DNA from: Pseudomonadota bacterium
GTDB taxonomy: Bacteria; Pseudomonadota; Alphaproteobacteria; Rhodobacterales; Rhodobacteraceae
Direction of reading: 5' to 3'
NCBI GenBank assembly: GCA_021779835.1
Contig: JAJXZX010000014.1
Location: forward strand, 1-64,000
Length of the DNA stretch: 64,000 bases
Part shown: piece by piece, positions 36,044-55,222 of the stretch
Layout of the letters: the number at the start of each line of letters is the position of its first letter
Position numbering within the stretch: position 1 is the stretch's first letter
The notes under the pieces: generated by a model
Database searches by the model: none
What the model saw: the letters and a program-made list of their open reading frames with translations, nothing else
Told to the model about the DNA's origin: nothing
Position numbers and translations under genes: made by a program

Positions 36044-36817
36044 TTACATCGCGGTCCAGCCACCATCGATGCTGATCGTGGTCCCCGTCACCTGATCGGC
36101 CGCGGCCGAGCACAGGTAGACCACGGTGCCGCCAATTTGCTCTACCGTCGCGAACTGACGCGAGGGCTGACGGTCCAGCATGACCTCGCGGATCACCGTC
36201 TCGCGGTCCATGTTATGCGCCTTCATCTGATCGGGGATCTGCGCCTCGACCAGGGGCGTCAGCACATAGCCGGGGCAGATCGCGTTGCAGGTGATGCCCT
36301 GCCCGGCCGTCTCTAGCGCCACGGTTTTAGACATGCCGACCAGCCCGTGCTTGGCTGAGACATAGGCCGATTTGAACGGCGACGCGCGCAGCCCGTGTGC
36401 CGAGGCGATGTTGACCACACGGCCCCAGCCCGCCTTGCGCATCATCGGCAGCGCGACCGCCGTGGTGTGGAACGACGAGGTCAGGTTGATCGCAATGATC
36501 GCATCCCACTTGGCCGCCGGAAATTCATCAATCGGCGCGACATACTGGATGCCCGCGTTGTTCACGAGGATGTCGCACGCACCTGCTTTGGTAATCAGCG
36601 CGCGGCAATCGTCGCCCTTGGACATGTCGGCCTGAATATAGCGCACAGTGACGCCGTATTGCTTGGCCAGCCCCTCGGCGATCTCGTGGTCGCTGTCAGC
36701 ATCCGTGAAGGAGTTGATCACAAGGTTCGCACCCGCCGCTCCCAAGGCATGCGCAATCCCCAGTCCGATCCCCGATGTCGATCCAGTGATAACGGCGGTT
36801 TTTCCCTGAAATGACAT
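36044..36817 (-). CDS. bdhA: 3-hydroxybutyrate dehydrogenase
   Basis: Oxidises (R)-3-hydroxybutyrate to acetoacetate with NAD, the step that feeds carbon from poly-hydroxybutyrate breakdown into central metabolism. The 257-residue SDR has TGSTSGIGLGIA near residues 11-22, NNAGIQYV, and the catalytic Ser/Tyr/Lys in IASAHG and YVSAKHG, with the C-terminal ISIDGGWTAM common to BdhA. AAAGGA precedes the ATG at 36817; an upstream open frame is non-coding in character. A CTGC-N4-GCAG site lies in its promoter. The gene stands alone, without phaA, phaB or phaC nearby. Confidence 0.88.
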   Translation of the reverse strand: MSFQGKTAVITGSTSGIGLGIAHALGAAGANLVINSFTDADSDHEIAEGLAKQYGVTVRYIQADMSKGDDCRALITKAGACDILVNNAGIQYVAPIDEFPAAKWDAIIAINLTSSFHTTAVALPMMRKAGWGRVVNIASAHGLRASPFKSAYVSAKHGLVGMSKTVALETAGQGITCNAICPGYVLTPLVEAQIPDQMKAHNMDRETVIREVMLDRQPSRQFATVEQIGGTVVYLCSAAADQVTGTTISIDGGWTAM

Positions 36818-36838: not shown

Positions 36839-36865
36839 ATCATAGTTAAGCTGCACTAGCAGCAA
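36839..36865 (-). promoter_or_regulatory. bdhA promoter with a PhaR-type CTGC-N4-GCAG site
   Basis: CTGC-ACTA-GCAG at 36851-36862 is a perfect dyad that lies between a TATGAT box (36844-36839) and a TTGCTG box (36865-36860) on the minus strand, 22-45 bases upstream of the start. The form CTGC-N3/4-GCAG is, as I recall, the site reported for PhaR of Rhodobacter sphaeroides and Paracoccus. A repressor bound there would block the promoter. Confidence 0.5.
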
Positions 36866-36935: not shown

Positions 36936-37011
36936 AAAAAAAACGCCCGCACAAGGCGGGCGTTAAGTTATTGAGGCAGGTTTCATACAGGCAAGAAACC
37001 TATCGAGCAGT
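36936..37011 (-). ncRNA. Putative small RNA, about 76 nt, upstream of bdhA
   Basis: No frame is coding here, yet on the minus strand there is a complete transcription unit. It has -35 TTGGAG (37046-37041), a 17-base spacer, -10 TATAAA (37023-37018), a predicted start near 37011, and an end in a strong terminator: AACGCCCGC/GCGGGCGTT with a 5-base loop and then eight T (36943-36936). Inside, AGGTTTC/GAAACCT (positions 36978-36984 and 36995-37001 on the plus strand) forms a perfect 7-bp stem with a 10-base loop containing TGCCTGTAT. A single-stranded linker (CCTCAATAACTT) lies between stem and terminator, as in Hfq-binding sRNAs. hfq is in the same window. The family is not identified. Confidence 0.7.
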
Positions 37012-37017
37012 GCATTC

Positions 37018-37046
37018 TTTATACGCAGTTATCCGCTGCTCTCCAA
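37018..37046 (-). promoter_or_regulatory. Housekeeping-type promoter of the putative sRNA
   Basis: TTGGAG and TATAAA on the minus strand with exact 17-base spacing. The -10 is followed by GAATGCA, placing the start six to seven bases downstream, just 5' of the first stem of the putative sRNA. Confidence 0.6.
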
Positions 37047-37124
37047 GCTAAAAGTTTGAAAAGGTTGCAAAGCCCGGTTAGGCACAGGTGTAATTAAACA
37101 AGGCCCGGAAGGATTGTCGCCAAA

Positions 37125-38936
37125 ATGAAACCGGATTATTTCCGCTTCCTGGCCCGCAGCATCGCTGTTCTTGGCCTGCTTTCTGCCACCGCCCCAGCCT
37201 TCGCTGATTCCGCCTATGGCATAGCTATGTATGGTGCCCCAGCGTTGCCACCGGATTTTGTGTCGCTGCCCTACGCCAACCCGAATGCACCGCAAGGCGG
37301 CAGCATCGTAACGGGCGAATCGGGCAGTTTTGACTCGCTCAATCCCTACATCCTCAAGGGTAATGCGCCCTATTGGCTTGGCCCTCTCACCGTCGAGTCG
37401 CTGATGGGCCGCAGCTATGACGAGCCTTTCACCCTCTACGGTCTGCTGGCCGAATCGATCAACACGCCACCCGACCGCTCGTGGGTTGAATTCACGCTGA
37501 ACCCCAAGGCCCGATTCTCTGACGGCCACCCGGTTACGGTTGACGACGTGATCTGGTCGTTCGAGACGCTCGGCACCAAAGGCAGCCCGCGCTATTGGGG
37601 CGCGTGGAAAAAGATCGCCAAGGCCGAGCAAACCGGCCCGCTGAGCGTGCGCTTTACCTTCAACACCCCGGACCGAGAGTTGCCGTTGATCCTTGGCCTG
37701 CGACCGATCCTGGAAAAGGCGCAATGGCAGGGCAAGGACTTCGCCGCCTCGTCGCTGGAGGCGCCGATCGGCTCTGGCCCCTATGTCGTCGACAAGATGG
37801 AGCCGGGGCGCTTTATCAGCTTCAAGAAGAACCCGGACTGGTGGGGCAAGGATCTGCCCTTCAACCGTGGCCAGTGGAACCTGTCCGAAATCCGCTATGA
37901 TTACTTCAGCGACGCCAATGTGGTGTTCGAGGCGTTCAAGGGTGGCACGCTGACCTCTTATCGCGAAACCAGCCCGGCGAAATGGGCGTCAAATTACGAT
38001 TTCCCCGCCGTGAAATCCGGCGCCATCACCCTGTCGGAAATCCCCGACCACCGGCCGTCGGGCATCCAGGGGCTGGTGATGAACACGCGCAAGCCGATCT
38101 TTGCCGATTGGCGCGTGCGCGAGGCGCTGATTGACGCCTTCAACTATGAATTCATCAACCGCACCGTCAACGGCGGCACAGATCCGCGCATCACGTCATA
38201 CTACTCGAACTCCATCCTTGGCATGTCGCATGGCCCCGCCACCGGCACCGTCCTTGCCGACTTGCAACCCTTCGCCTCAACCCTGCTGCCCGGCGCGATA
38301 GAGGGCTATTCCCTTCCCGTATCGGATGGAACCGAGGCCAACCGCAGCAATCTTCGCAAGGCCACGCATCTGCTGGAAGACGCAGGCTGGACCATTCAGA
38401 ACGGTGCCCTGCGCAACGCCAAGGGCGAGGATTTCACCTTCACCATCCTGCTGCCCCAAGGCGCAAGTGTGATGCAATCGGCGGTCAACATCTACATCGC
38501 CGCCCTGAAACGCCTTGGCATCACCGCCACCGTCTCTACCGTCGATTCCGCGCAATACGTCGCCAGGACACAGTCCTATGACTTCGACATGACGCAATAC
38601 GAGGTCTCGCTGTCGCTTAGCCCCGGCAATGAGCAATGGCTCTACTGGGGCAAGGATGGCGTCACCAATCCCGGCACGCGCAATCTGATGGGCATGGACT
38701 CGCCCGCCGCCGAGGCGATGATTACCAAGCTGCTGACCTCGACCAGCCACGACGATTTCATCGCAGCCACCCGCGCGCTGGACCGCATCCTGACGTCAGG
38801 CCGCTATGTGATACCGGTCTGGTATTCCAACGTCTCGCGCATTGCCCATATCAAGCAACTGAAATACCCTGCAACACTGCCGGTCTATGGTGACTGGACC
38901 GGCTTTCAACCCAATGTCTGGTGGTATCAGGACTGA
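37125..38936 (+). CDS. ABC transporter substrate-binding protein, peptide type (YejA-like)
   Basis: A 603-residue periplasmic receptor of the SBP_bac_5 (DppA/OppA) family. Its signal peptide of about 28 residues ends APAFAD. The start of the mature protein, DSAYGIAMYGAPALPPDF and LPYANPNAPQGGSIV, is the characteristic opening of YejA-like proteins, whose partners import peptides including microcin C-type ones in Escherichia coli. No permease or ATPase genes (yejB, yejE, yejF) follow, so it is an orphan receptor here. AAGGA precedes the ATG. A tiny entericidin gene starts 5 bases after its stop. Confidence 0.85.
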   Translation: MKPDYFRFLARSIAVLGLLSATAPAFADSAYGIAMYGAPALPPDFVSLPYANPNAPQGGSIVTGESGSFDSLNPYILKGNAPYWLGPLTVESLMGRSYDEPFTLYGLLAESINTPPDRSWVEFTLNPKARFSDGHPVTVDDVIWSFETLGTKGSPRYWGAWKKIAKAEQTGPLSVRFTFNTPDRELPLILGLRPILEKAQWQGKDFAASSLEAPIGSGPYVVDKMEPGRFISFKKNPDWWGKDLPFNRGQWNLSEIRYDYFSDANVVFEAFKGGTLTSYRETSPAKWASNYDFPAVKSGAITLSEIPDHRPSGIQGLVMNTRKPIFADWRVREALIDAFNYEFINRTVNGGTDPRITSYYSNSILGMSHGPATGTVLADLQPFASTLLPGAIEGYSLPVSDGTEANRSNLRKATHLLEDAGWTIQNGALRNAKGEDFTFTILLPQGASVMQSAVNIYIAALKRLGITATVSTVDSAQYVARTQSYDFDMTQYEVSLSLSPGNEQWLYWGKDGVTNPGTRNLMGMDSPAAEAMITKLLTSTSHDDFIAATRALDRILTSGRYVIPVWYSNVSRIAHIKQLKYPATLPVYGDWTGFQPNVWWYQD

Positions 38937-54988: not shown

Positions 54989-55222
54989 TCAGTCTTCACC
55001 GTCGTAAAGGCTGATCGGCTGGCCCGGCATGATGGTCGAGATTGCATGCTTATAGACCAGTTGCGACTGCCCATCGCGGCGCAGGAGAACGCAGAAATTG
55101 TCAAACCAAGTGATTACACCTTGCAGCTTGACGCCATTAATCAGGAAAATCGTGACAGGAATTTTTGTCTTGCGGACATGATTGAGAAACGCGTCCTGCA
55201 AATTCTGTTTATCGGCGGCCAT
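54989..55222 (-). CDS. hfq: RNA chaperone Hfq
   Basis: A 77-residue hexameric RNA chaperone that pairs small RNAs with mRNAs. Sm1 ([25 protein letters not shown]) and Sm2 with the YKHAISTI motif are complete. The C-terminal tail is very short, ending DGED, as in alphaproteobacteria. A purine-rich AAAGGC site precedes the ATG. The gap of 172 bases to ntrX has no trkA, which I expect between them in relatives. The presence of Hfq supports functional sRNAs such as the one proposed at 36936-37011. Confidence 0.95.

Follow-up and report, generated by a model that had tools for sequence, protein, structure and literature searches.

A probable small RNA gene between bdhA and a divergent solute-binding-protein gene, conserved throughout the Rhodobacteraceae

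Introduction

The alpha-r8/MmgR RNA is a known alphaproteobacterial small RNA (sRNA) linked to polyhydroxybutyrate, and its gene usually lies beside that of N-formylglutamate amidohydrolase. The alpha-r8/MmgR/SisA-D family (Rfam RF00519, 'suhB') comprises RNAs of about 77 nt from Alphaproteobacteria that consist of a 5' hairpin, then a C/U-rich region without pairing, then an intrinsic terminator; its members regulate genes of carbon storage and transport (PMC12559287, PMC7143759). The defining core of this family is the single-stranded 10-mer UUUCCUCCCU (PMC12559287). For a second sRNA, StsR (RSs0827) of Rhodobacter sphaeroides, the Northern probe GGACAGTGAAGGTAGAACGG has been published (PMC11354728). 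A third, 'Intergenic 134' of Paracoccus denitrificans, is described in PMC5107571 as an 84-nt, minus-strand RNA, confirmed by RT-PCR and conserved in Rhodobacteraceae.

Here, we describe a locus in a 64,000-nt stretch of Rhodobacteraceae DNA (the window) for which an earlier note had proposed a new sRNA gene beside bdhA, possibly tied to carbon storage. Its overall plan resembles that of the alpha-r8 family, with matching size, a 5' hairpin, a single-stranded linker and a terminator, but it differs from that family in sequence and in genomic neighbourhood.

Results

Organization of the sRNA gene

The gene sits in a 307-base gap, with bdhA on one side and a divergent family-5 solute-binding-protein gene on the other. 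It is composed of the following elements:

36936..37012, minus strand: sRNA gene; transcript of about 76-77 nt, probable +1 at the A at 37011
36971..37011, minus strand: near-invariant 41-nt core ACTGCTCGATAGGTTTCTTGCCTGTATGAAACCTGCCTCAA; mean identity 99.0% over 73 loci
36977..37002, minus strand: 5' hairpin of 8 pairs whose 10-nt loop is UUGCCUGUAU; sequence variation almost nil, no covariation signal
36936..36964, minus strand: intrinsic terminator, formed by the stem AACGCCCGC/GCGGGCGTT and a run of eight T; covariation in the stem among relatives
37018..37023, minus strand: -10 element TATAAA of the sRNA promoter; TAT/TAA here in 69/73 loci
37041..37046, minus strand: -35 element TTGGAG (CTTG-type) of the sRNA promoter; CTT[GT] in 65/73 loci

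Read along the minus strand from 37046 to 36936, the sequence is TTGGAG-N17-TATAAA-N5-C-ACTGCTCGATAGGTTTCTTGCCTGTATGAAACCTGCCTCAATAACTTAACGCCCGCCTTGTGCGGGCGTTTTTTTT, with a spacer of 17 bases between the -35 and -10 elements and CACTGC as the 5' end at 37012. The RNA is expected to begin with ACUGCUCG and to end in the U tract. Its 5' hairpin, GGTTTC-N10-GAAACC, reaches 8 pairs when the flanking A-U and U-G are counted, and is separated from the terminator (9 pairs, then eight T at 36936-36943) by the linker UGCCUCAAUAA, which is predicted to be single-stranded. The motif UGCCU occurs twice in the core, once in the hairpin loop and once in the linker. When folded, the 76-nt RNA reaches -25 kcal/mol (z = -4.6), and none of 200 shuffled sequences was equally stable. 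These elements lie where the earlier note had placed them, from the promoter (TTGGAG, 17-base spacer, TATAAA) to the internal stem, here extended to 8 pairs, the linker, the GC terminator with eight T and the length of about 76 nt; the conserved part of the -35 element, however, is CTT(G).

A coding function was considered and rejected. The RNA contains a 7-codon frame (ATG AAA CCT GCC TCA ATA ACT TAA), which has no ribosome-binding site and whose stop position is not kept: among 125 distinct loci, the frame reads MKPAS in 57 (mostly Paracoccus), MKPASIT in 29, and is longer in many others. Nor is the RNA the tail of an mRNA, a possibility that the earlier note had raised against its own proposal, because the upstream gene is divergent.

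Relation to described sRNAs

Nothing in the window exceeds an Rfam threshold. The RNA scores 24.2 and 19.2 bits against the alpha-r8 model, with a gathering score of 41, and the 10-mer that defines the alpha-r8 core occurs neither in the window sequence nor in the 41-nt core; together, the missing 10-mer and the low covariance score rule out an alpha-r8/MmgR identity. The neighbours also differ, being a peptide-binding-protein gene and bdhA, and alpha-r8-like matches in the genus are found at loci other than that of the sRNA. One of these (G001:C34:60833-60908) is a sub-threshold alpha-r8-like RNA with a CUACCUCCCU stretch and a terminator, a possible divergent MmgR relative in the genus. Among other candidates, SorY (RF02651) was rejected at 13.3 bits against a gathering score of 111, and the remaining sub-threshold Rfam matches (Hrs13, leaders, RyhB) were set aside as mainly driven by the terminator hairpin. 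StsR is likewise a short (72 nt), stand-alone RNA from the same bacterial family, but its published probe has no counterpart in 36936-37012. In more general terms, its own promoter, seed-like single-stranded regions, a U-tailed terminator and the presence of hfq in the genome are all features shared with Hfq-dependent trans-acting sRNAs, from which the RNA nevertheless stands apart in the unusual invariance of its core across a whole family.

Conservation within the Rhodobacteraceae

A blastn query comprising promoter and RNA gave a single match in its own genome, indicating a single copy, and matched 7/7 genomes of the genus and 290/296 genomes of the family, nearly all from different genera; four of the six family genomes without a match are less than 90% complete or badly fragmented. 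With the RNA alone as query, all 293 near-complete Rhodobacteraceae genomes, representing 113 genera, were matched (the sample was drawn for the order, and held this family alone). We then aligned 73 distinct loci, picked so as to cover the most divergent ones. Mean column identity is 99.0% from +1 to +41, falls to 79% in the linker, and is 87% in the terminator stem and 96% in the T tail, compared with 45% in the flank ahead of the promoter and 38% in the downstream flank. The 41-nt core is intact even where the promoter sequences are unrelated, and its conservation is therefore not a mere reflection of recent ancestry.

Within the alignment, a CTTG/TAT pair is kept at fixed spacing in most of the loci. 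In the -35 element, strict conservation is confined to CTT(G) and does not extend to the full TTGGAG; several species of the same genus have CTTCCC at this place. The terminator stem shows two-sided changes at 8 pairs among relatives, whereas the 5' hairpin varies so little that covariation neither proves nor disproves its pairing. It is this family-wide conservation, rather than agreement with a promoter or terminator consensus, that exceeds chance: in this region, the promoter alone is not beyond chance and fails a consensus scan, terminator-like sites are not over-represented, and the terminator alone is likewise not beyond chance. The comparison with Rfam and related genomes that the earlier note had named as a check came out strongly in favor of a new sRNA gene, with a near-invariant core hairpin, promoter elements held at fixed spacing in most loci, a presence in 293/293 family genomes, a promoter and terminator of its own, and no Rfam family above threshold.

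The sRNA is found in 56 Paracoccus records, one of which is the second chromosome of P. kondratievae, and it also occurs on plasmid-like replicons of P. ferrooxidans, P. versutus and P. pantotrophus.

Partial extra copies were seen in two genomes. In G136, two hairpin-like sequences, CCCGATAGGGTTTCTGCC[AT]GTATGAAA, are present without a terminator (L174 and L175, near 559-592 of C101 and 365584-365613 of C114), each preceded by similar GC-rich palindromes; they may be an interspersed repeat in which the sRNA hairpin recurs. In G275, part of the core recurs in degenerate form, TTGCCTGTATGAAATCTGCCTCAA, outside the usual neighbourhood (L173, C1:334137-334160). With the terminator missing, these partial sequences look like degenerate copies or repeats.

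Range outside the family

A covariance model (R1) built from 39 sequences was run on 387 alphaproteobacterial genomes. All six Rhodobacteraceae among them score 100-106 bits, and the search of about 381 other Alphaproteobacteria returned no convincing homologue, just 13 weak matches of 25-32 bits. These were rejected as homologues, with at least 18 mismatches to the 41-nt core throughout and the family neighbour genes absent at every one; as the terminator is present and the core absent, we regard them as terminators. Judged by sequence, the sRNA looks specific to the Rhodobacteraceae, with the proviso that strict filters and the few candidates scored per genome mean that strongly diverged relatives could be missed.

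Neighbouring genes and the shared promoter region

Two protein-coding genes flank the sRNA gene:

37125..38936, plus strand: family-5 extracellular solute-binding protein (peptide/nickel ABC type); Pfam SBP_bac_5, 220 bits; syntenic in 70/72 loci
36044..36817, minus strand: bdhA, 3-hydroxybutyrate dehydrogenase; TIGR01963, 368 bits against a cut-off of 307; syntenic in 54/72 loci

In a survey of 72 distinct loci with about 1.5 kb of flank on each side, the binding-protein gene is the most constant neighbour (70/72 vs 54/72 for bdhA), and in Paracoccus it is divergent from the sRNA at all loci having enough flank. Among the open reading frames near the binding-protein gene in the window, we noticed neither a permease nor an ATPase gene, so this protein may be an orphan. 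On the other side, the bdhA start (36817) follows the sRNA terminator at a distance of 118 bases, as given in the earlier note. Where bdhA is present it lies downstream in the same direction, between +125 and +1300 relative to the hairpin; in the other 18 loci it was not found within the flank searched. The hfq gene is also encoded in the window, as previously noted, on the minus strand near 54989-55222.

The PhaR-type site that the earlier note had assigned to bdhA was found as well. It is a PhaR-like palindrome of the form TGCN4GCA at 36852-36861, TGCACTAGCA, which reads GCTGC-TAGT-GCAGC in the opposite strand and lies in the gap separating bdhA from the sRNA terminator. Given this location downstream of the terminator, the site is not part of the sRNA promoter but belongs to bdhA. 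PhaR-like TGCN3-4GCA sites occur in 34/72 of the gaps between the sRNA and bdhA, compared with 14% in shuffled sequences, and this over-representation suggests that bdhA is under separate control.

Two further features lie between the sRNA and the binding-protein gene:

37041..37061, no strand assigned: conserved box TTTCAAACTTTTAGCTTGGAG; core AAACTT[TC]TAGCTT in 45/72 loci
37056..37084, plus strand: putative divergent promoter of the binding-protein gene, TTGAAA-N17-TAGGCA

The box core CAAACTT[CT]TAGCTT has a single exact match in each genome of the genus. We considered a special regulator site and rejected it in favor of two promoters arranged back to back: on the binding-protein side, TTGAAN-N17-TA is found in 43 of the 46 loci having the -35 element, and the 20-base box, upstream of the RNA, is best explained by the -35 elements of both genes flanking a centre rich in A and T. 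Because they share this divergent promoter region, the two genes may be co-regulated.

Discussion

Our preferred reading, to which we assign a probability of roughly 60%, is that the locus is an independent sRNA gene with its own promoter and terminator, representing a Rhodobacteraceae-wide family that most likely acts in trans by Hfq-type base pairing. Transcription would start at a housekeeping-type promoter of its own and stop at its own intrinsic terminator, with Hfq bound to the U-rich 3' end of the RNA. A large number of mRNAs may then be contacted by base pairing through the linker, the hairpin loop and the exposed 5' end. The probable contact sites are ribosome-binding sites rich in purines, which would complement the UGCCU present in two copies, and the paired mRNAs would be repressed or destabilised. 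Neither the neighbour-pairing nor the genus seed searches yielded a conserved target. Pairing between the sRNA and the start regions of bdhA or the binding-protein gene was not consistent between loci. In seven genomes of the genus, TGAGGCAGG-N1-10-ATG occurs at 34 sites and TACAGGCAA-N1-10-ATG at 5, and the only genomes to share sites in front of a clear common gene are the closely related G004 and G005.

The proximity of bdhA invites two other explanations. The RNA could be a cis-acting leader or attenuator, left when transcription ends prematurely within the 5' leader of bdhA, as is compatible with its strand, with a terminator 118 bases upstream of bdhA, and with bdhA being the next gene in 54/72 loci. 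Yet the RNA is unchanged in the 18 loci where bdhA was not found nearby, the distance to bdhA varies from +125 to +1300, the stretch between terminator and bdhA is unconserved, and no alternative antiterminator is evident; the intervening PhaR-like site further suggests that bdhA has its own control. Together with the divergent upstream neighbour, the variable distance argues against a 3'-UTR or obligatory leader origin, and we consider the leader explanation very improbable. A role of the sRNA in polyhydroxybutyrate metabolism, as the earlier note had proposed, would fit the adjacency of bdhA and the enrichment of PhaR-like sites in the gap, but these sites sit downstream of the sRNA, the peptide-binding-protein gene is the more constant neighbour, no conserved pairing with bdhA was found, and the RNA fails the alpha-r8/MmgR tests. 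This part of the earlier proposal did not hold up: the link is not supported beyond the bdhA neighbourhood, and appears quite unlikely.

The near-identity of the core raises the further question of whether a protein, rather than mRNA, is the main partner, the RNA serving as a stand-alone decoy or scaffold in the manner of 6S or CsrB-type RNAs. Ordinary base-pairing sRNAs usually show less invariance in both hairpin arms, and here both arms and the loop are nearly unchanged, with no compensatory changes, as expected if a protein reads folded shape and sequence; a protein partner could therefore be involved. As the main mode of action, however, this seems unlikely, since no repeated protein-binding motif is evident past the two UGCCU copies, the single-stranded flanks are conserved as strongly as the hairpin, and the terminator and long U tail resemble those of Hfq sRNAs. 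A different question is whether the RNA has already been detected, for example as Intergenic 134 of P. denitrificans or as an unnamed abundant Rhodobacter sRNA. Size and conservation of Intergenic 134, as PMC5107571 describes them, fit, and the numbering of its list would assign the position in strain PD1222 (not among our loci), 759993-760077, to chromosome 2, in line with Paracoccus relatives that carry the sRNA on a secondary chromosome or large plasmid. Against this, PMC5107571 also lists non-alphaproteobacterial matches, which are not expected for the sRNA described here; the sRNA is also not StsR, and we found no paper containing the core sequence as text. We therefore regard earlier detection as a tentative identification, a little short of an even chance.

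Returning to the reading as a trans-acting sRNA gene, its occurrence in essentially every genome, the fixed neighbourhood and the almost frozen core imply that it probably controls something central. At even odds, it is a core regulatory RNA of all Rhodobacteraceae, as constant as a structural RNA and with no described function or Rfam family, whose core may be frozen by many mRNA targets (or a dedicated protein) contacted through the UGCCU loop and UGCCU linker. The alignment would make a clean new Rfam family, and the sRNA is amenable to deletion and probing by standard methods in several laboratory species. The Rhodobacteraceae are a large family of marine and soil bacteria, among the most abundant in the sea, and include model phototrophs and denitrifiers. 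To our knowledge, few sRNAs are common to all of them, and the surprise is that this one would be universal and almost frozen across the entire family.
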